From Salinibacterium xinjiangense (lineage in GTDB: Bacteria; Actinomycetota; Actinomycetes; Actinomycetales; Microbacteriaceae), in the NCBI RefSeq assembly GCF_014645015.1, contig NZ_BMLC01000002.1:372001-436000 (forward strand): a stretch of 64,000 nt of DNA, read 5' to 3'. Below are positions 274 through 14,009 of the stretch, one piece after another. The notes under the pieces were generated by a model. That model had not been told where the DNA came from and searched no databases. It saw only the letters and a program-made list of their open reading frames with translations. A program made the position numbers and the translations under genes. How positions within the stretch are numbered: the stretch's first letter is position 1; every line of letters begins with the position of its first letter.

Positions 274-1404
274 ATGGCCTACGAGATGTCGGTGCACGCA
301 CAAGATCCCAAAGTCGGAAGAGTTGGGGTGGTGCTCGATGCGATAGCTCACGCATCCAAGGAGTCTGGCGACTACGAGCACGTTGATATTGCCGTAGCGT
401 ATGCGTCGACGAAGGGCGTTCGTCTCTTGAAGGAGAGGTTGTCCAGCGGGGCTTGGACTGCATCCACCAAAAGATTTCTGGTGAGTATCGACTTTGGTTT
501 CACGCAACCCAACGCGCTCAAAGCCCTGAGCGAGCTCGACAACTCGGAGGTGAGAATCCCGAACGCACGCGCAGTTCTGGACTCGTCCGTCCTCCGTCCG
601 CCATCTGCATTCCACGCGAAAATTTTTATGTTCGGCGGGGAGGAATGGAAGGATCTAAGAGCGCTGATCGTGGGATCGGCTAATGTCACCGCGAGTGCGC
701 TCTCGACTGGTGCTGAGGTAGTCACCAAGCAGATTTGGCGCAACAACTCCTCACGCACAGTGGCTTGGGAGCACTTGAAGAGGGCCAAACCGGTCGTGGA
801 CTGGTTCGAAGATACCTGGGATAGTGCCGACCTGCTTGCCGATGTGCTCGACGAGTACAGGCAGCGCTACCGAGCCTTGCCCAAGCCGCGCATACCTCCC
901 GAGGAAACAACCCGGACCACACGCGTCTTCCTCGCGTCGCCTACTGAACATGTAATTACAGGCATTCTTCCTGTGCAACTCGCGGCTGCAAAGTCGCTAT
1001 GGGTCGACGGCTCATCCATCATTCGGAACCGAAAACCTAGGCCCGGAAATCAGCTAAACACTCCCCGCGGAACTAGGGTCTTTTTTGGCTTCGATTCGCG
1101 AAACGTGTCAAAAAATACAACCTTGGGGTATGTCGAGATACGGATCAGTGGGCATGACTATGTGAAAAAACGATCGATCCGGTTCGCCGACAACGGCATG
1201 GACATCATCGGGCTGCCTATTCCAGAGCGGTACGGCGTCGGCACCTATCAAGACACCATCCTGATCTTCACTCGTGACCCTACTCACGCTCGATTTACTC
1301 TGACTGTCACCGACCAAGCAGGACTGGCTGACCGTCGAGCAGCTGCTGCGAACAACGTGGAGCTGTCAATGTCTCACGGCCGACGCTACGGACTCCTCTT
1401 CTAG
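274..1404 (+). CDS. Phospholipase D-like nuclease domain protein
   Basis: A 376-residue protein. Residues 110-150 hold a single PLD-type catalytic patch: SAFHAKIF (H114, K116) followed by VGSANVTASAL (134-144) and a conserved-looking GAEV. This corresponds to the HxK...GS/GxN signature of PLD-family nucleases. The usual Asp of HxKxxxxD is not obvious (G at that place). One HKD half per chain implies a dimer, as in the restriction enzyme BfiI and the Nuc nuclease. The C-terminal 200 residues are not recognised and could bind DNA or partner proteins. No signal peptide or membrane segment is seen. It lies two bases after the methyltransferase and upstream of a PD-(D/E)XK protein, so a role in restriction or phage defence is inferred. 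Lipid hydrolysis is unlikely in this context. Confidence 0.7.
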   Translation: MAYEMSVHAQDPKVGRVGVVLDAIAHASKESGDYEHVDIAVAYASTKGVRLLKERLSSGAWTASTKRFLVSIDFGFTQPNALKALSELDNSEVRIPNARAVLDSSVLRPPSAFHAKIFMFGGEEWKDLRALIVGSANVTASALSTGAEVVTKQIWRNNSSRTVAWEHLKRAKPVVDWFEDTWDSADLLADVLDEYRQRYRALPKPRIPPEETTRTTRVFLASPTEHVITGILPVQLAAAKSLWVDGSSIIRNRKPRPGNQLNTPRGTRVFFGFDSRNVSKNTTLGYVEIRISGHDYVKKRSIRFADNGMDIIGLPIPERYGVGTYQDTILIFTRDPTHARFTLTVTDQAGLADRRAAAANNVELSMSHGRRYGLLF

Positions 1405-1501
1405 AATCCCCTAGGGCCGACACTCGGGGGAAGACGGCTTCCTGCTGGCTGAAGAGAGATTTATTGACGAACGGCAGTAGCGCACGGGATTGAGATGGGA
1501 A

Positions 1502-2740
1502 ATGACAGTGACAGAGCTTTTCGAACGCGGGTACCTCCGCGACTACTTCGGCAAGCGCCTGTCGTTGATTCGGAGCAGTTTCGAGAGTCTGAGCGAAGAC
1601 GAAGTACTGAGCCGTTCGACGGAAGACCTGATGCAAGAACTCACTGAGCGTGCTCGACTGGAGCCACTAAGCATTTCGGACGATCCGATCGATGGTGGTG
1701 TCGCCGAGGGAAGTGTTCAAGTCCGCGATCACTTCGACCGCGCAGTTCGCCAGCCAGTATTCAACGTGCGTGCGGTCTATGAATTCAGCGGCGACGAGGA
1801 CTTGCTCTACTACCAACCCTCGACCAGCATCGCGTTCACGACCATCCAGGCAGATGTCGGGCGAGGAACCTTGACTGTTCATGCCACGATCTCGGCCAGC
1901 CGGGCCAACACCGGTGCCGAGGCTCGACGCGCCTTTGAGGATGAGATCGGGATGATCCGCACCAATGCTGCTCACTCCGCCCGGGATGTCGCGGGTTTCA
2001 ATAATAATGTCGAGTCTCTGCTCCGCCCTGCCGTCGAGCGTCGCAAGGAGTTACTGCAGCAGCGCCGAGATCTTGCTGGCGCGCTCGGGTTCCCTATGAA
2101 GAGGCGCACTGACGCACCCTCGAAAGTCCCCCTCCAGCGTCGCGACATCGGTACACAGCGCAATGCATCGGTGGCAAAGGGACGAACGCCATATCGTGAC
2201 GAGCCGGCTCTGACTGAGGCGCAGTACGAAGACGCGATCGCCGTAGTTGAGTCGACACTCCTTGCGATGGAGCGCACACCTTCTGTCGCCTCGGGTAAGG
2301 ACGAGGAAGAACTGCGCGACCAGATCCTGGTCCAGCTCAACGGTACTTTCCAAGGCAGTGCGACGGGGGAGACATTCATACAGGCAGGCAAGACAGACAT
2401 ACTCGTCCGTGTCGAAGATCGCCATGTATTCGTCGGCGAGTGCAAGTGGTGGAGTGGTGAGAAGGGACTGGGTGAGGCAGTCGACCAGCTCCTGAGCTAT
2501 TTGCCGTGGCGAGACGAGAAGGCGGCTCTCATCGTTTTTATCGACCGGAAAGATGCTTCGGCGGTATTTGAGAAGGCGGAGACCGCTGTCAAGTCGCATC
2601 TGTCCTTCAAGCGCGCGGGCAAGAAAAGCGTCGATCCGATGAAGCGACGAAACTTCGTACTCGGACATCCAGACGACTCGGAACGCGAGATCCAGTTGGC
2701 TGTCCTTTTTGCCGTGCTGCCGAGGGAAAGTAAGAGGTGA
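1502..2740 (+). CDS. PD-(D/E)XK nuclease-fold protein, restriction-associated
   Basis: The ATG at 1502 gives 412 residues; a TTG at 1490 is the alternative start. Residues about 290-330 contain GETFIQ-x-GKTDILVRVED and then VFVGECKWW. This is the E...D-x(n)-E-x-K arrangement of PD-(D/E)XK nucleases (D about 299, E about 313, K about 315), followed by a helix with QLLSYL as in restriction-endonuclease-like families. The N-terminal 220 residues are not recognised; they include a beta-rich part and a helical stretch rich in R/E/Q (residues 140-200). It lies 97 bp after the PLD gene on the same strand and probably shares its transcript. It may cut DNA or be a structural remnant of the fold. Substrate is unknown. 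Confidence 0.65.
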   Translation: MTVTELFERGYLRDYFGKRLSLIRSSFESLSEDEVLSRSTEDLMQELTERARLEPLSISDDPIDGGVAEGSVQVRDHFDRAVRQPVFNVRAVYEFSGDEDLLYYQPSTSIAFTTIQADVGRGTLTVHATISASRANTGAEARRAFEDEIGMIRTNAAHSARDVAGFNNNVESLLRPAVERRKELLQQRRDLAGALGFPMKRRTDAPSKVPLQRRDIGTQRNASVAKGRTPYRDEPALTEAQYEDAIAVVESTLLAMERTPSVASGKDEEELRDQILVQLNGTFQGSATGETFIQAGKTDILVRVEDRHVFVGECKWWSGEKGLGEAVDQLLSYLPWRDEKAALIVFIDRKDASAVFEKAETAVKSHLSFKRAGKKSVDPMKRRNFVLGHPDDSEREIQLAVLFAVLPRESKR

Positions 2741-2880: not shown

Positions 2881-3025
2881 CATTTTTGCCCGCATTTTGA
2901 CTGCACTTGAAACAAAACAGCCTGACCACCATGATCTTGCGAGGCTACAAATCGCAGATAAAACTGGGTTGTTGACCCTCGCCCGCACGATCAAGGGGCC
3001 GGATATCGGGTTCGAAACCCTTCAC
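2881..3025 (+). repeat. Left direct repeat of the OLD/helicase module (att-like copy A)
   Basis: Aligns almost colinearly with 10177-10327. Shared blocks are GCATTTTGACTGCACTTGAA, CAAAACAGCCTGA, ACTGGGTTGTTGACCCTCG and GGATATCGGGTTCGA. The last block resembles the T-arm/3' end of a tRNA, the usual target of tyrosine integrases, but the acceptor part has diverged here (ends in AAACCCTTCAC). No integrase lies between the two copies. Interpreted as a relic attachment site. Confidence 0.6.
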
Positions 3026-3059
3026 ACCGCGACCGAAATCGCGGCATGAACAACGTGAA

Positions 3060-3239
3060 GAAGCCGTCCGAAAATCTGCGACAGATCACATGCCCGTACA
3101 CGATGAGCTCGTCGATGCCCGCCCGGATCTCGGCTTCTTCCTCGATCGCATCCTCATGGGGATCGATTGGCTGGCCTTAGTAGGTGAGCGGGAGGGCATA
3201 GATCCCCTTAGCGATGAGCGATAACCGTGGGTCGTTCAT
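3060..3239 (-). pseudogene. Decayed small helix-turn-helix-like frame
   Basis: Translating the minus strand from an ATG at 3239 gives MNDPRLSLIAKGIYALPLTY, then an in-frame TAA (3177-3179), then GQPIDPHEDAIEEEAEIRAG and IDELIVYGHVICR. The pattern (DPRLS-AKG-Y...GQPIDP-EDAIE...I-ELI-G) resembles the short winged-helix domains common near the replication and excision genes of actinobacterial mobile elements. The stop and the drift into the att-like repeat mark it as dead. Identification is by pattern only. Confidence 0.45.
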
Positions 3240-3365
3240 CGCGGAGTGAGGTATCGCAGTGTCCACCGCGTTCGGCTCGACGGAGCGTAAGCAGGTTGGT
3301 GCGATCCAATCCCTAGCTGGCGACATCACTTCTCGGCCGCGACACGGAGACGGTACTACTTCGTC

Positions 3366-4580
3366 CTAGGCACTGGGTTTGGAACCGCTTTTCAAGAAAG
3401 ATATGACCACCGGCACAGCGGCTCCGGCCACAGCCAAGCCAATCGCGGCATTCTGCGCTGCTTCTTTACCAGCTCTATTTCGCTGCTGCGGATCTTTCAG
3501 CGCCTCGCGCCACGGTGTGACGCTGAGTGAATCGCGGGTGGAGTCGATGCCAAGGGGGCTGTGGAAGTCATCAACGACGGAAGCCGTGGCGTTGAGTGAG
3601 TTGACTATGGATTGTGCGGCTCTCGCGTGAAGAAGGATGTTCTCGTTGGCGATGCCGCCGGCTGAATCCATCTGCGTCATCAGTCGGGATGTGATCTCAA
3701 GCACACTGGCGCGCCGACTGGCGCGCGCATCCGCTACCCCGAGCCGGTGCCCGTCGAGGTGGTCGGGGGCGGTGGCGCGCACATAATCGAGTTCGATCAC
3801 GCGGAACCCGTCTTGTAGTTCGAAGCAACGTGCGAGCACCGCGAGCTGCATCGCGACGTCTTGCTCGATCTGCTTCGTCGCCTTTTTCAGGTCGCCAGTG
3901 CTGCTCTTGCCTTCGACCTTGTCAGCAAGCGCACGTAGCGCGAGCAGCGCATCTTCCTGCACCGTGAAGAGCGTCTCGGACACGCCGTTCACTTTGTCCC
4001 ACCACGTCTTCGGGTCGCCCCCGTGGTCGCGGATCGTCTCCGCTTCAACGATCGATGCGCCAGCACCTTTCATTCGGGCGAGCACGTTGTCTCGCTGAGC
4101 GCGACGCACGTCGTCGAGCTTTTCACCGATTCGTACGAGCAGTTCTTTGAGCTCCTGCGCCTCGGCCTGTTGGGCGAACTGGCTGAGAAGCCCGCCCGCT
4201 CCCGATAGCACCGCTGGATTGCTCAGCAGCGATACCGCACCATCTTCGGCTTGTAGCCACTTGAGCGACTGCTTGCCTGGTTCGCCGAGCATCATGTGAG
4301 AGATGCCTTTGATCTTTGTGGGCATCAGACCGCCGGCATCCTTGAGTCGCTTGGCGGACTCGGGCGTGAGCTTGAGGTACATCGCCGACTGTTCGGCAAC
4401 GTGGGAGAGAGTGCTAGCGATTTCCGCACCCGCACTCGCCGCAGTGTGGAGTTTGTCTGGGTCAAACGGCTTCGCCTGCGCCAGCAGACCCAGGCGCGTG
4501 AGGATTCGTTCGACAGCGGCTCGTTCGCCCACGACGATGGCACCCTCGTCATCGCTCACTAGTTCGATCTGGTCTGCCAT
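3366..4580 (-). CDS. Unknown protein with C-terminal hydrophobic tail, next to defence module
   Basis: The 404-residue reading starts at MADQIELV, where GAAGGG sits about 8 bases upstream; a longer frame from 4607 lacks such a site. The protein is mostly helical. Residues about 20-110 contain AGAEIASTLSHVAEQSAMYL and GGLMPTKIKGISHMMLG. A helical middle part follows (FAQQAEAQELKELLVRIGEKLDDVRRAQRDN). Near the C-terminus is one hydrophobic segment (IGLAVAGAAVPVVISFL), a likely tail anchor. No catalytic motif is visible. It is convergent with the upstream nuclease gene and divergent from the OLD/helicase operon, and lies inside the same direct repeats. I do not recognise the family; a role as a membrane effector or accessory of the neighbouring system is only inferred from position. 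Confidence 0.6.
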   Translation of the reverse strand: MADQIELVSDDEGAIVVGERAAVERILTRLGLLAQAKPFDPDKLHTAASAGAEIASTLSHVAEQSAMYLKLTPESAKRLKDAGGLMPTKIKGISHMMLGEPGKQSLKWLQAEDGAVSLLSNPAVLSGAGGLLSQFAQQAEAQELKELLVRIGEKLDDVRRAQRDNVLARMKGAGASIVEAETIRDHGGDPKTWWDKVNGVSETLFTVQEDALLALRALADKVEGKSSTGDLKKATKQIEQDVAMQLAVLARCFELQDGFRVIELDYVRATAPDHLDGHRLGVADARASRRASVLEITSRLMTQMDSAGGIANENILLHARAAQSIVNSLNATASVVDDFHSPLGIDSTRDSLSVTPWREALKDPQQRNRAGKEAAQNAAIGLAVAGAAVPVVISFLKSGSKPSA

Positions 4581-4992
4581 TGCCTGACCCTTCACATCCT
4601 GCGGCAAGCGTACCGGCCGTCGGCTAAGCGAGACTCACCGTGGTATGCCACGTCTCAACGGGGCTTGACGCCGTCTCGGCTCCCAGTGGCTGGCGCTAAG
4701 ACTACGACCACTGGGCTTCTTTGATGTGGTGCGCCAGACGTGGCACTGCGAGCACGGAATGGATTCCGGCGAGCCCCGGGTACCTGAGCCGATAATGACA
4801 TCATTTCTTCACAGTGCGTCGCTAACGTGTTTAAGCAGATTGAGGACCCTGCTCTCGGTTCGACAGAGCTCCCGAATGTAGGCCGTGCCGGTCTCGGTCA
4901 GGGTTCAGAGTCTGACCCCGCCGATAGTGTGACTTCACGTCAGTTACTGGCCAAAAAACCAACTAAGCGCGCCTGGGCGAGGAGCAATACAT
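4581..4992. other. Divergent intergenic region, no gene seen
   Basis: About 410 bp between the minus-strand unknown and the plus-strand defence operon. It must hold both promoters, but I could not point to convincing -35/-10 pairs. No conserved frame, repeat or terminator was recognised. Confidence 0.5.
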
Positions 4993-5388
4993 ATGACTGA
5001 ATTCGTGCCGGGTGAAACGGTGGACGCGCAGGCAGCACTGCTTGCCCAGCTTCCAGATCTCGTCCCAACCGCGTTCGCTGACGCAGGAGTCCTTGATCGC
5101 GCAGCGTTGCTCTCCCCGGTTGGTCCCGGTGACGAGGACATAGCACCCGCCTTAACTCTTTCGTGGTCGTCAATCGACATGGCACGCACCGAAGCCCGCG
5201 GTGCGACGACCTCACCGCTCGTGCCGGATGCGGCTGCCTTGCTTGACTGGGACACGACAAGGAATGGTCTCACCCAAGGTGACAACCTGCAGGCGCTCAA
5301 GCTCTTGAAGAATGGCCCCGCCGATTACACGAGCACGACGGATCGTGATGGCGTCCGGATCGAAATGCAAGTTGGGGAGGTCTCATGA
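4993..5388 (+). pseudogene. Type III DNA methyltransferase (Mod) reduced to N-terminus plus short tail
   Basis: The 131-residue frame ends its recognisable part with LSWSSIDMARTEARG...LLDWDTTRNGLTQGDNLQALKLLKNG. This matches the N-terminal region of type III site-specific methyltransferases just before the YIDPPYNTG catalytic motif. The sequence then jumps to DYTSTTDRDGVRIEMQVGEV and stops. The catalytic DPPY, the SAM-binding motif and the target-recognition domain are all missing, so about 450 residues have been lost in frame, leaving a short fused tail. It cannot methylate DNA. The stop overlaps the next gene's start (ATGA at 5385-5388), so the remnant may survive as a leader that couples translation to the OLD nuclease. 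Alternatively it is a genuine small protein that kept only the N-terminal domain. Confidence 0.7.
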
Positions 5389-7340
5389 GGCTAGTAAAGG
5401 CTGAGATTCAAGGGTTCGGACGACTCGCTGAAGGGAAGGTGAATCTCGACAGCAAGGTCATCGCGGTCGTCGGACCTAACGAAGCAGGGAAGACCACGCT
5501 CCTGCGGGCACTGGCTTTTGTGGACAACAAGGCAACTCTGTCCCCATCTGAGCGCTCGCGGGGTCTGAACGTCCCCGACGATCGCACAGTCGTTCGCGTG
5601 CAGTACTTGCTCACGAAGGAAGAGCAAAAGAGCCTGGCGGGATTCGATCTTGAAGAGCAGCCGAAATCGCTTTGGCTCTCACGCACCGCGATGGATGGCG
5701 CGGAGCCGCGTTTGGCTGTTGAGCCCGCGCCGCGCAAGGCTGTTGCGCCGCTCGCGAGGGCCGTAAAGGAACTCCGGGCAGCAGCAATCAAGATGGCGTT
5801 CGCTGAACTCGACTACGAAGTTCCTGGACCCAACGATGCCGGAGAGACGCCTCCGGCCGATGAAATACGAGCGACACTTCGTGACCGTTCTGAGACGCTC
5901 CTCGCCAAGATCTTCGAAGAACAAGAATCAGCTGACTTGCCAGCTGCCATGGCGCAACACGCAGACTCTCTTCGCCAGATCCAAGCTGAACTCAATGCAT
6001 ACGCACTCGCCGCAAGTCTCAGCGCCGCCATCGGTGTTGTTTTGGCTTGGTGCGACCGAGAGGACCCAACCGAGGCGGTGGCCAATGCGCTCTGGGCGCT
6101 CTCACCGAACATCCTTCTATTCGGCGACGAGGACCGGACGCTTGGATCGTCTCACGCGCTTAGCGAAGAGTTTTTTGCTGCTCCACCGGCGTCTCTTCGA
6201 AACCTGCTCGGGATGGCTGAACTCGACGCGGCTGCTTTTTGGGCGACATTCGTCTCTGGGGATGAGGGCGAGCGTGAAACCCTCATCGATGAAGCGAACC
6301 AGACGCTCGCTACAAAGTTCGCTGCGGCCTGGAAACAGTCAAACATCACTGCGATTTTGAAGACAGAGCAAACGATTCTCTCCATCCGCATCAAGCAGGA
6401 TGGAAAACGAATCACCCAGTTTGATGAGCGAAGTGCCGGCCTCAAGATGTTCGTGGCGCTCGTTGCTTTCCTTGCGGTGCGCCAGGAGACGGTTCCGCCA
6501 ATCCTCCTGATCGATGAGGCTGAGACGCATCTACACATTGATGCGCAAGCCGACTTGGTCAACACCTTCATGACGCAGCAGCAAGCGGCGAAGATCATTT
6601 ACACGACGCACTCGCCAGCGTGTCTTCCCCCGGACCTCGGCTCCAACATTCGTGCCGTCATTCCTGATCCGAGCCACGAATACCGCAGCCTTCTAAAGGG
6701 CAGCTTTTGGGAGGGATCTGCAGGATTCTCGCCGTTGATGTTGGCGATGGGAGCAGGTGCCACTGCCTTCTCCACGGCGCGGTACGTCGTACTAGCGGAG
6801 GGCGCATCTGAGATGCTCTTGCTGCCCACACTGATCAAGCGATCGATCGACGTTCCTGACCTCGAGTACCAGGTAGCGCCCGGTCTGTCAGAAGTGCCTC
6901 CCGAGATGTACCCGGAACTGGACTTGGCCGGAGCTCGAGTGGCCTACCTCGTTGACGGTGACAAGGGGGGACTCAAGCGCCGCGTGGAGCTAATTAAGGG
7001 TGGTGTTCCAGAGGACCGGATCATCACCCTCGGAGCGCTCACGCTCGAGAACCTGCTTGAGCCCGAGGCTTACCTCGAAGTCACCCGTACCTTGCTCCAG
7101 GAGTGCAATCCAGGAAGTGCGGTTCCTGAGCTGCCTACATTGCCGTCCCCGGGAGAAGAAGTATGGCCTCCGTTCCTCGACAAGTGGGCGAAGGCAAACG
7201 ACCTGAAGATGCCCGGTAAGCGAGTCGTCGCAAGCCGATTGATTGAGGAAGCTCAAGCTCGGCCCAGCGATTTCGGGGCTCCGATGTTGCGCCAGTTGCA
7301 CGCTGATCTGCGTGGAGTGTTGAAGCGCGGGTCGACTTGA
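5385..7340 (+). CDS. OLD-family ATP-dependent nuclease (AAA + TOPRIM), GajA-like
   Basis: A 651-residue protein of the OLD family. The N-terminal ABC-type ATPase has Walker A GPNEAGKTT (residues 30-38). The signature region (RSAGLKMFVAL) precedes Walker B LLIDEAETHLH (about 374-384) and the switch histidine in YTTHSPACL. A C-terminal TOPRIM domain follows, with its glutamate in VVLAEGASEMLLLP (about 468) and the acidic pair in YLVDGDKGG (about 521). All motifs needed for ATP-regulated DNA cleavage are present. The start overlaps the truncated methyltransferase and the stop overlaps the helicase start, a coupled operon. OLD nuclease plus SF1 helicase is the architecture of Gabija (GajA/GajB), so anti-phage action is the best inference. 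The helicase is much larger than usual GajB. Confidence 0.85.
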   Translation: MRLVKAEIQGFGRLAEGKVNLDSKVIAVVGPNEAGKTTLLRALAFVDNKATLSPSERSRGLNVPDDRTVVRVQYLLTKEEQKSLAGFDLEEQPKSLWLSRTAMDGAEPRLAVEPAPRKAVAPLARAVKELRAAAIKMAFAELDYEVPGPNDAGETPPADEIRATLRDRSETLLAKIFEEQESADLPAAMAQHADSLRQIQAELNAYALAASLSAAIGVVLAWCDREDPTEAVANALWALSPNILLFGDEDRTLGSSHALSEEFFAAPPASLRNLLGMAELDAAAFWATFVSGDEGERETLIDEANQTLATKFAAAWKQSNITAILKTEQTILSIRIKQDGKRITQFDERSAGLKMFVALVAFLAVRQETVPPILLIDEAETHLHIDAQADLVNTFMTQQQAAKIIYTTHSPACLPPDLGSNIRAVIPDPSHEYRSLLKGSFWEGSAGFSPLMLAMGAGATAFSTARYVVLAEGASEMLLLPTLIKRSIDVPDLEYQVAPGLSEVPPEMYPELDLAGARVAYLVDGDKGGLKRRVELIKGGVPEDRIITLGALTLENLLEPEAYLEVTRTLLQECNPGSAVPELPTLPSPGEEVWPPFLDKWAKANDLKMPGKRVVASRLIEEAQARPSDFGAPMLRQLHADLRGVLKRGST

Positions 7341-10042
7341 GCAGCGTAGGCGAGCACATTCGCAGCATTGACGGGGCGGTCTGCAGCAACATTGTTGCAC
7401 TTAGTGACGACCGCGGGCTTCTGTCTCAGAACATGCTGCTGCAGCTCCGAAACCTCGTCGAGGGCGTCGCGGTTCTCATCCACACGAACGACGTCGACAC
7501 CGAGCATGACTACCGTGCTATCACGGCCGCAATCGCTCACATCAAGTCGCGTGGGAAACTCGCGTTCTTAAACCGCTTCTACACGCTTCTTCAGCCGAGC
7601 ACCTCGCACTATACGTTCGACGGTGACAACTCTGAGCGTTTGATGCTCAAGTACTACGAGTATCTCTTGCGAGTCCGCGCGTTCCTCAGCGACACATTCG
7701 AGCTCGAGGTGCTCGCCAATCTGGAATCCTTCCCCGTCGACCTCGATCCGTCACTTCTGGAGTACCACGAGAAGATTGCTGCGCGTATTGTCGCAGTGCG
7801 GAGCCTCCCGGATGTCGGAGATTCGTCTTCGCGGTTTTACGTCCTCAAGACTCGTCCGTTCTTCGTGAACGGTCGGATCTACTACGAGGTGACCTTCACG
7901 AATCCGGTCGACCGCAACAATAAGTTCGATCGGGTGATCGCTTTCACCGATCAGGATGTCGGTGACAAGTACGCCGCGTACCTGACGCTTCGCCCTGAAT
8001 CAATCAACGTGCTCGGGCAGATGATGCCCATCACGGTTATCCGCAAGTGGGCTGTGTCGATCCGCCCGTGTGAGCTTGAGAACTTCGCGCGTCTCGTCGG
8101 TCCGTCTACGAACATCAACTCTGGCGGCCCGGAGTATCGCGCCCTCATGAAGTACCTCACTTCGACCGAGTCGACGTTGGTCGATCTCATGGACCTGCCC
8201 GATCAGCGATACGAACGCGTCAAAGCCAAGGTCACCGAGCGTTCCCGAGACCCGAGAATCTTCCCTGGCCTGGACAGGGCCCGGGAGATCATCAGAGGGA
8301 AGAGGCGCGGTTACATCGTGCTGCGTTATCTGTTGCTCCAGATGAAGAACGTCGTCGTCCGTCAGCAGTACAACTCCGACGGATGTGCGCGGCTGTCCGG
8401 GCTCAACCTTCAGTGGGGCTGCATCCCGTTTGATCAGATGCCCTTTTGTGCATCGCCGATGGGCCACAACCCCCGCTTCCGAGATCTCATAGAAGCCATC
8501 GACTCGACCGGTCGAACCCATGAGCTGCTTGCCCGGCGAGTGAAGAACAACGTGGATCGATACGGGATGCTCTACACGCCCATCGGCGACCTCGAAGGGT
8601 TTGGCGATGTATCGATACTGATCCGACAGCATAACGACGCGCTCTACGGGAACGCGCGCCACCAGGCGCGAAGACTGGAGGTGGATCGGGGTCACGTCTT
8701 CATCCGGGGTTACGAGAATGAGATTGTAGAGATCGTAGAGAAGATCCAAGCCCTCGGGGTTGCGGGCGTCGGAGGTTGGGGGAACGCAATCGACCAATGG
8801 TTGGACGACCGTGCTCAATTGATCGACGATCCAAGCAAGGCCGGCGCCCTCCGATCACTCTTTGGGGAGTCGCGAGTTGCACTCGTCTACGGGGCGGCCG
8901 GGACTGGCAAGACGACGATGGTGAACTACATCGCGAACTATTTCAACGAGTCGCCGACGCTCTTCCTCGCTAACACCCATCCAGCAGTCGACAATCTTCG
9001 TCGTCGCGTTCAATCGCAGCACGCACAGTTCCGGACAATCTCAAGCCACAACTGGCGGAACCAGTCCGACCCGGAGTTCGAAGTCGTCGTCATCGACGAG
9101 TGCAGCACGGTGAGCAACGAAGCACTGCTGAAGGTTCTCCAAGGGACTCGGTTCAAGTTGCTCGTCCTTGTCGGCGACGTGTACCAGATCGAGTCGATTC
9201 AGTTCGGGAACTGGTTCGGGATGATGCGGTCGTTCTTACCACAAGCGTCGGTCTTCGAGCTGGAGACTCCATACCGCACAACAAACACAGCGCTCCTCGG
9301 GCTCTGGCAGAAGGTGCGCAACGTCGAAGACGACATCACCGAGGCGATGACCAGGGGTGGCTACTCGACGATTCTGAACGAGACCCTTTTCGAGCCGCAG
9401 CGCGAAGACGAGATTATCCTGTGCCTCAACTACGACGGGCTCTATGGCATCAACAACATCAACCGGTTCTTACAGAGCAGTAACCCAAGTGCTTCAGTTG
9501 AGTGGGGACCGGCGACTTACAAGGTCGGCGACCCAGTCGTTTTCAACGACAGCGAGCGGTTCAAGCCGCTTATCTACAACAACCTCAAGGGTGTGATCGT
9601 CAGGATCGACCGAGTGCCCGGCCGAGTCCGATTCGAGATCGATCTCGCGAGAGACGTCACCGAGCTTTCAGTCTCGGATACCGAGCTCACTTGGGTGAGG
9701 GGCTCGGTGGTAGCTTTCGACGTGTTCGAGTTGGCCAACAGCGACGATGACGATGCGGCCCTAAATACCTCGGTCCCATTCCAAGTTGCCTACGCTGTCT
9801 CAATCCATCGAGCTCAAGGTCTCGAGTACGAGTCAGTTAAGGTGGTCGTTACTGATGCGAATGAGGATGAGATCTCGCATAGTATTTTCTATACGGCCTT
9901 GACAAGGGCGCGCCAAAATCTTCGAGTGTTCTGGACTCCCGAGACGCAGCAATCAGTGATCGAAAGTCTGGAGCGGAAATCGAGCGCGAGGGACGTGGCG
10001 CTGTTGTCGGGTCGCCGTGCTTTGACTCCTGTAGTCCGATGA
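7337..10042 (+). CDS. SF1 helicase with large uncharacterised N-terminal domain
   Basis: A 901-residue protein starting at a TTG inside the stop of the OLD gene. The C-terminal half is an SF1 (UvrD/RecD-type) helicase: Walker A GAAGTGKTT (about 520-528), Walker B VVVIDECST (about 583), the Q-containing motif LVGDVYQIESI, and motifs V/VI in VSIHRAQGLEYESVKVVVTD and FYTALTRARQNL. Residues 1-500 show no known domain. They include a cysteine- and proline-rich stretch (SGLNLQWGCIPFDQMPFCAS) and a region around FDRVIAFTDQDVGDKYAAYL that looks enzyme-like or nucleic-acid-binding. GajB helicases are about 500 residues, so this chain carries an additional module of about 400 residues. Together with the OLD nuclease it forms a two-gene defence-type operon. 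Confidence 0.82.
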   Translation: MSSVGEHIRSIDGAVCSNIVALSDDRGLLSQNMLLQLRNLVEGVAVLIHTNDVDTEHDYRAITAAIAHIKSRGKLAFLNRFYTLLQPSTSHYTFDGDNSERLMLKYYEYLLRVRAFLSDTFELEVLANLESFPVDLDPSLLEYHEKIAARIVAVRSLPDVGDSSSRFYVLKTRPFFVNGRIYYEVTFTNPVDRNNKFDRVIAFTDQDVGDKYAAYLTLRPESINVLGQMMPITVIRKWAVSIRPCELENFARLVGPSTNINSGGPEYRALMKYLTSTESTLVDLMDLPDQRYERVKAKVTERSRDPRIFPGLDRAREIIRGKRRGYIVLRYLLLQMKNVVVRQQYNSDGCARLSGLNLQWGCIPFDQMPFCASPMGHNPRFRDLIEAIDSTGRTHELLARRVKNNVDRYGMLYTPIGDLEGFGDVSILIRQHNDALYGNARHQARRLEVDRGHVFIRGYENEIVEIVEKIQALGVAGVGGWGNAIDQWLDDRAQLIDDPSKAGALRSLFGESRVALVYGAAGTGKTTMVNYIANYFNESPTLFLANTHPAVDNLRRRVQSQHAQFRTISSHNWRNQSDPEFEVVVIDECSTVSNEALLKVLQGTRFKLLVLVGDVYQIESIQFGNWFGMMRSFLPQASVFELETPYRTTNTALLGLWQKVRNVEDDITEAMTRGGYSTILNETLFEPQREDEIILCLNYDGLYGINNINRFLQSSNPSASVEWGPATYKVGDPVVFNDSERFKPLIYNNLKGVIVRIDRVPGRVRFEIDLARDVTELSVSDTELTWVRGSVVAFDVFELANSDDDDAALNTSVPFQVAYAVSIHRAQGLEYESVKVVVTDANEDEISHSIFYTALTRARQNLRVFWTPETQQSVIESLERKSSARDVALLSGRRALTPVVR

Positions 10043-13502: not shown

Positions 13503-13763
13503 TCAGTAGTGTTCGCGGGCCTGCAGGACGACGATGCGGTCGTCGGTGACGTAGTAGACCAAGCGGTTCGCGTCGTCGATGCGGCGCGACCACGCGCCGG
13601 AGAGGATGTGTTTGAGGGGTTCCGGTTTGCCGATACCAGCGAACGGATCGCGCAGCGAGTCGGTGATCAGTTGATTGATGCGCTTGAGGGTCTTGCGGTC
13701 CTGGGTCTGCCAGTAGACGTAGTCCTCGCACCCGTTCGGGTCGAAGGCGATCGTGCGCGTCAC
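13503..13763 (-). CDS. yoeB: YoeB-family mRNA interferase toxin
   Basis: 86 residues from a GTG at 13763: a Txe/YoeB toxin of the RelE superfamily. It carries AFDPNGCEDYVYWQTQDRKT, INQLITDSLRDPFAGIGKPE, LKHILSGAWSRRIDDANRLV and the terminal REHY. The family's catalytic residues (Glu, Arg, His and the C-terminal Tyr) have visible counterparts in KPEPLKH, WSRRID and REHY. Known members cut mRNA at the ribosomal A site. The start overlaps the stop of a truncated YefM-like antitoxin (GTGA at 13760-13763). The toxin looks intact, so either an antitoxin is supplied elsewhere or the locus is silent. It is divergent from the homocysteine methyltransferase gene. Confidence 0.88.
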   Translation of the reverse strand: MTRTIAFDPNGCEDYVYWQTQDRKTLKRINQLITDSLRDPFAGIGKPEPLKHILSGAWSRRIDDANRLVYYVTDDRIVVLQAREHY

Positions 13764-13875
13764 GCGTCCAGGAGGTCGTGCTGCTGGAACTCGCCTCGCC
13801 GGGCTCGATCGATCGCCGCGAGTAACCGCTCTGCGTTTGCGGGGTTCCGCAGCAGGTAGGCCGTCTCCGTTCGGC
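13760..13875 (-). pseudogene. Truncated YefM/Phd-like antitoxin (C-terminal piece)
   Basis: The minus frame that ends at 13760 reads ETAYLLRNPANAERLLAAID-RARRGEFQQHDLLDA. This is the C-terminal toxin-binding part of YefM-type antitoxins. Upstream of about 13875 the frame gives no DNA-binding Phd/YefM fold. The frame passes instead into the region antisense to the next gene's start. The DNA-binding half and native start are therefore missing, which should abolish autoregulation and probably production. Confidence 0.65.
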
Positions 13876-14009
13876 AGCATCGGGGAATCCAGCAACCGCT
13901 GGGCCGTGCGATGGCGATGGACGACGATGCGTCACAGTAGGCGCCAACACCGGCCTTGACATCACGCGCCGAAAAGGACGATAGTTTCTCCCGACCCGAG
14001 GGGATTCGC

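Follow-up and report, generated by a model that had tools for sequence, protein, structure and literature searches.

Overlapping genes for an OLD-family nuclease and a PDC-S53 candidate helicase form a putative two-gene defence cassette in Salinibacterium xinjiangense

Results

Gene layout and protein families

A stretch of 64,000 nucleotides from Salinibacterium xinjiangense (contig NZ_BMLC01000002.1, positions 372,001 to 436,000; hereafter the window) was analysed for a putative defence system in which the gene for an OLD-family nuclease is overlapped by the gene for a large helicase. Three consecutive open reading frames (ORFs) on the forward strand, at 4993-5388, 5385-7340 and 7337-10042, encode products of 131, 651 and 901 amino acids (aa), and neighbours overlap by 4 bp each. 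The genes and the parts of the helicase are as follows.

4993..5388, + strand: N-terminal piece of a type III methyltransferase (Mod), truncated, 131 aa (residues 9-107 match PADLOC MTase_III, E 8e-9)
5385..7340, + strand: OLD-family protein of 651 aa, an ABC ATPase whose C-terminal domain is a Toprim nuclease (AAA_15/AAA_21; motifs)
7337..10042, + strand: PDC-S53 helicase of 901 aa, starting with TTG and overlapping the OLD gene by 4 bp (PADLOC-DB 2.0 candidate PDC-S53)
7337..7804, + strand: helicase residues 1-156, predicted bundle of helices resembling HEPN structures, no conserved RX4-6H motif (model and VIA)
7805..8068, + strand: helicase residues 157-244, probable OB-fold like SSB/PriB/RecO (model of residues 1-500 and VIA)
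8069..8818, + strand: helicase residues 245-494, predicted mostly helical region (model of residues 1-500)
8396..8455, + strand: motif SGLNLQWGCIPFDQMPFCAS, helicase residues 354-373, well conserved in relatives
8819..9982, + strand: SF1B-like (RecD2/Dda-like) motor, helicase residues about 495-882 (AAA_30, UvrD_C_2; RecD2 TIGR01448; phrog_325; PDB)

The product of 4993-5388 covers positions 43-138 of the 513 in the PADLOC MTase_III profile, and its reading frame stops right after. Because an N-terminal part is matched and the ORF then ends, we regard this gene as a methyltransferase remnant. Its stop overlaps the OLD start, and the OLD stop in turn overlaps the TTG start of the helicase. An earlier sequence-only reading of this DNA had described remnant, nuclease and helicase as one coupled series; the order and the 4-bp overlaps hold, but the remnant is too short for a working part.

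The same reading had claimed complete motifs in both main proteins, and these were confirmed. The OLD protein carries the ATPase motifs GPNEAGKTT (Walker A, residue 30), DEAETHLH (377) and THSP (408), and its Toprim residues E472, G500 and D524/D526 are invariant across 10 aligned sequences, the window's included. The Pfam family OLD-like_TOPRIM matched weakly (E 0.02, below its cut-off), and the GajA profiles of PADLOC matched locally, at best with 49.7 bits. After the DxD motif 125 residues follow, lengths alone being considered for the helical insert that class 2 proteins have in the Toprim domain.

The helicase belongs to the candidate family PDC-S53: positions 1-896 of the 900 in the PADLOC profile align with residues 1-896 at 1291 bits. 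The superfamily 1 (SF1) motifs, complete and located in the C-terminal 400 residues, are GAAGTGKT at 519, DECS at 587, GDVYQ at 613, YRT at 646, HRAQG at 824 and YTALTRAR at 852. The motor is SF1B-like and differs from the UvrD-like motor of GajB, the Gabija helicase. It scored 91.5 bits against the RecD2 model TIGR01448 and 216.9 bits against phrog_325 ('Dda-like'), and the best PDB sequence match of the helicase was a RecD2 chain; the best GajB profile of PADLOC reached 35 bits in a local match whose best stretch was 60 residues. RecD2 and Dda are SF1B helicases that move 5'-to-3'. The Gabija-like helicase of the sequence-only reading was thus not borne out. A full-text search for the name PDC-S53 found no paper in the literature collection searched. 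The PDC families as a group are presented in PMC12988326 as candidates obtained by guilt-by-embedding, many of them single-gene, with validation pending for most of those treated.

The N-terminal half of the helicase

The first 500 residues were indeed unfamiliar, as had been claimed, with no Pfam family above its cut-off. In a PADLOC scan all 68 N-terminal halves examined matched PDC-S53. Since the profile also spans residues 1-896, we see the N-terminal half as part of PDC-S53 itself and not, as the sequence-only reading had it, as extra residues on a Gabija-like helicase. A GajB extension is rejected on the strength of this match together with the RecD2/Dda-like motor. Pfam and PADLOC scans of the 68 halves gave nothing consistent besides PDC-S53, PDB sequence searches with the half and with its profile gave no significant match, and phrog_325 also matches residues 2-347. 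The motif SGLNLQWGCIPFDQMPFCAS, to which attention had been drawn, is real and falls in the second helical region.

The predicted structure of residues 1-500 (68 sequences, pLDDT 87) begins with a helical part, followed by a barrel (about 157-244) and a second mostly helical region (245-494), which the fold searches of this model barely sampled. A separate model covered residues 1-158 (67 sequences, pLDDT 83). The fold search proposed earlier was productive in part: Foldseek gave nothing significant (for residues 1-500, no match in BFVD at E 0.001 or better), and both the HEPN and the OB readings come from a second look with VIA. There the barrel aligned with OB domains, mostly of SSB, PriB, RecO and MCM proteins, at Z 8.0 to 6.9, values up to 8.0 being near the level of chance arrangements. 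Among the matches listed, 50 VIA rows all begin at residues 156-160, and nearly all share the OB fold. Residues 157-244 probably form an OB-fold.

For residues 1-158, VIA ranks 1-7 were HEPN proteins at Z 9.6 to 7.7, which is under the level safe for helical bundles, with root mean square deviations of 3.3-4.3 over 108-115 residues; 7bxo was counted as HEPN here though titled only toxin-antitoxin. These matches are suggestive of a HEPN-like bundle, and we word the likeness weakly. The RX4-6H motif has no conserved column, with scattered matches in 27 of 67 sequences and the commonest column hit 14 times. A profile comparison by hhalign with HepT, the one HEPN family tested, scored 15.9 against 9.5-18.5 for six column shuffles and 13.1 for the reversed profile, which amounts to no similarity. 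A canonical HEPN RNase is rejected on these two grounds. Residues 90-109 are strongly conserved in the 67-sequence alignment: R101, K105 and Y106 are invariant, so that an invariant R is followed by an invariant Y, and D97, S99 and E100 are nearly so. The stretch starts within the lowest-confidence part of the model (90-97); judging by the aligned ranges and the numbering of HepT, it would lie near the HEPN active-site loop.

The helicase alignment comprised the window sequence and 64 relatives kept by an 850-aa length filter; because of that filter it cannot prove that all relatives are full-length. Split helicase frames occurred at loci L055, L057 and L143. At L143 the two ORFs (2962-4497 and 4494-5783, minus strand) divide the helicase near residue 375, within its N-terminal half; the split may reflect decay or a genuine arrangement as two genes. 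At L066 and L068-L072 the match is limited to C-terminal stretches of the helicase (residues 841-899, for example), some of these loci being contig ends and others degraded copies.

Distribution of the two proteins

PDC-S53 relatives were found at 72 loci in genome contigs, including those of Actinomycetota, Pseudomonadota and Cyanobacteriota, most of them 51-62% identical over the best segment; others occur in the phages TPDSL_ph1 and phi1605 and on plasmids. At E 1e-60 the helicase was present in 3 of 396 genomes of the phylum and 13 of 398 of Microbacteriaceae, the window's own genome included, and at E 1e-30 the OLD protein was present in 4 and 6 genomes of the same sets. Both proteins together occurred in the own genome only. 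At least two genomes (L002/L133, L012/L136) are represented both among the 72 contig loci and among the 12 Microbacteriaceae loci. On account of the patchy occurrence we reject a plain housekeeping helicase.

The sequence-only reading had looked to homologues that keep both genes adjacent. An OLD relative lay near the helicase at one of the 72 other loci, L003 of Microbacterium Root166, where it is directly upstream and again overlaps the helicase, which here starts with GTG, by 4 bp. Window and L003 are 68% identical in their OLD proteins and 73% in their helicases. A partner would go unseen at six of the 72 loci (L027, L030, L047, L066, L068 and L069), because less than 1 kb of DNA precedes the match. 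As the Microbacteriaceae counts show, the OLD nuclease and the PDC-S53 helicase are not an obligate pair.

The flanks examined around the other OLD relatives spanned about 5-7 kb in each direction, but less than 1 kb on the upstream side of L146 and L151. None of the eight had a match to PDC-S53 or, with one UvrD-like query at E 1e-3, to a UvrD-like helicase in the fetched flanks. L144 has the HsdR gene of a type I restriction-modification (R-M) operon upstream and a PDC-S06 ATPase gene downstream, L150 is separated by a single ORF from the HsdR-like gene that precedes it, and L151 is beside a gene that by eye resembles a DNA methyltransferase. No OLD relatives were found on PLSDB plasmids at E 1e-20.

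Neighbours of related helicases

Near-identical helicases have differing neighbours. The window helicase grouped in the tree with those of L132 (91% identical) and L133 (87%) at 100/100, without L003. At L132 an 813-aa SMC-type ATPase, with LmuB as its best PADLOC match (62.7 bits), lies 11 bp upstream of the helicase; L133 has no tightly coupled gene, the nearest being a 147-aa ORF 81 bp off. Explaining the presence of OLD on this tree, which has 27 rows, takes two changes, meaning that the pairing was either gained twice, or lost or replaced.

Elsewhere a conserved 121-aa protein is encoded directly upstream of the helicase at seven loci (L155, L036, L039, L043, L044, L048 and L067). Its gene at L155 occupies 7630-7995, 5 bp from the helicase, and the ORF 6727-7995 at L043 is probably inflated, the conserved part being the 121-aa gene annotated in Rhodococcus. 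A 278-aa protein or its relatives hold this position in six of the eight loci from phages or viruses whose helicase is near-full-length (5146-5982 in both L152 and L153; L075-L078), and the protein, tested in L152, weakly matched LmuA. At L137 (5817-6542, minus strand) and, shortened, at L140 (6635-6979, plus strand), a YgjP-like metallopeptidase gene separates the helicase from type I R-M genes. A SIR2-like gene at L073 and a Shango/BREX-type helicase gene at L019 lie 133 and 137 bp upstream of the PDC-S53 helicase, respectively. These lists are rough, because greedy ORF calling errs at high-GC loci, where it produced spurious genes and overlooked the true ATPase of L132.

Type I R-M matches occurred at 5 of the 12 Microbacteriaceae helicase loci (12.7-15.2 kb) and in none of the 40 control windows of 18.7 kb drawn at random from 10 of the 12 genomes concerned; some of these controls overlap one another (2 in G578, 3 in G626). 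With 37 controls, Fisher's test returned p = 0.0004, some of the R-M queries having come from the test loci. PADLOC REase_I models matched 5 of 59 neighbour proteins from the 12 loci, a set from which real genes had been dropped, including the L132 ATPase and a 1502-aa gene at L135 (25 of the 104 matching families listed). For the controls, with 25 of 44 families listed, there was no type I R-M among the matches listed, and mad3, LmuB and BrxA were present.

Other genes in the window

A further defence candidate lies close by, and a PLD-like protein is encoded in the same neighbourhood.

1490..2740, + strand: second PADLOC defence candidate, PDC-S54, 416 aa (401 bits)
274..1404, + strand: PLD-like protein, 376 aa (weak matches only: PLDc_2, E 1e-3, below cut-off; ZacB, E 7e-7)

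The PDC-S54 gene is about 2.6 kb upstream of the OLD gene, and its product shows by eye a C-terminal D...ECK pattern resembling a PD-(D/E)xK nuclease. The PLD-like protein also weakly matches NgoFVII. The gene at 13503-13895 on the minus strand encodes a YoeB-like toxin (124 bits), part of a type II toxin-antitoxin system.

Discussion

We favour, with modest confidence, a two-gene defence cassette made of an OLD ABC-ATPase/Toprim nuclease and the modular candidate helicase PDC-S53; coupling of the two proteins is plausible. The helicase would grip single-stranded nucleic acid through the predicted OB-fold and N-terminal helical domains, its SF1B motor would move 5'-to-3' and expose or deliver foreign DNA, and the Toprim domain of the OLD partner might then cut what is delivered. 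Polarity, cutting of foreign DNA and cooperation of the two proteins are proposed here by analogy with their families, and the OB-fold and HEPN-like bundle from structural models. As far as searched here, the pair is a new and somewhat unusual combination, and its parts are two known kinds of defence protein. Because the helicase relatives adjoin many different defence genes, we see in it a new combination of known parts and not an enlarged Gabija. The relatives adjoin type I R-M genes, an LmuB-like ATPase or clade-specific small proteins, which makes the helicase the constant part and the partner exchangeable.

Each part resembles known systems. With other PDC-S53 proteins the helicase shares a near-full-length match; PDCs are described as mostly single-gene in PMC12988326, whereas the gene here overlaps an OLD gene. 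The motor is that of RecD2- and Dda-type SF1B helicases, which the window helicase exceeds by about 490 residues in front, with the predicted OB-fold. Anantharaman et al. 2013 (PMC3710099) describe fusions of HEPN domains with SF-I helicases in R-M contexts; a helical bundle before an SF1 helicase and R-M genes at some loci recall these fusions, but RX4-6H conservation and HepT profile similarity are lacking here. Stand-alone OLD nucleases of class 1, such as P2 Old and T. scotoductus OLD, have the same ABC ATPase and Toprim domains, and eight relatives of the window protein likewise lack a helicase partner of either kind tested. The window OLD gene differs in being overlapped by a helicase gene, and its product has 651 aa against the 528 residues of chain 6p74_A.

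That last likeness leads to an explanation we consider possible, if clearly the less probable: a class 1-like OLD protein and PDC-S53 would be two stand-alone defences stacked in one transcript, overlapping for co-expression only. PDC-S53 mostly occurs without OLD, and the OLD relatives stand in other contexts, such as behind type I HsdR-like genes. Yet the 4-bp overlap recurs at L003 despite the divergence of both proteins, and L003 has no evident upstream operon. We find it improbable that the pair is a diverged Gabija, a class 2 OLD protein with an enlarged GajB, as the overlapping genes, the order of OLD-family nuclease gene then helicase gene, the intact Toprim site and the local GajA matches might suggest. 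GajB is a UvrD-like helicase of class SF1A, and the sequence-only reading put its length at about 500 aa, whereas this one is SF1B-like, is 901 aa long with predicted helical and OB-like domains ahead of the motor, and comes from a family found mostly without OLD. The helicase of Gabija is described as UvrD/PcrA/Rep-like in PMC10568477 and PMC10781630. Gabija is further marked by a 4:4 assembly of GajA and GajB. Very unlikely, in our estimate, is a helicase that serves replication or repair, derives from a phage or plasmid, has no defence role and lies beside OLD by chance; its relatives in phages and on plasmids and the Dda-like label of phrog_325 fit this, but the patchy distribution, the PDC label and the type I R-M and other defence genes at some loci do not.

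Several observations weigh against the cassette we favour. The OLD pairing is known from two genomes only, and Foldseek found no PDB match at E 0.001 or better for the models of residues 1-500 and 1-158. Type I R-M matches stood out against the control windows at the Microbacteriaceae loci, but HsdM or HsdR matches occurred at only 8 of the 72 contig loci, and part of the R-M count depends on queries drawn from the test loci themselves. Many direct neighbours of the helicase have no assigned identity, and some control proteins (59 scanned of 449) also match PADLOC models, e.g. mad3 in 5 and LmuB in 2.

A bolder idea, which we hold to be doubtful, is that PDC-S53 is a shared defence motor that combines a HEPN-like domain with a non-canonical active site (D97, S99, E100, R101, K105, Y106), an OB-fold and an SF1B helicase. 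Movement on foreign DNA would trigger RNA cleavage, and a swappable partner (OLD, LmuB-like ATPase or type I R-M) would serve DNA cutting or sensing; the OLD pair would then be one such composite. PDC-S53 is conserved across several phyla, and our literature search found no test of it. The domain reading and the variable neighbours lead to testable ideas about how unrelated defence operons could use one helicase as a common module, and they raise the question of whether OLD nucleases have recruited helicases more than once outside Gabija.

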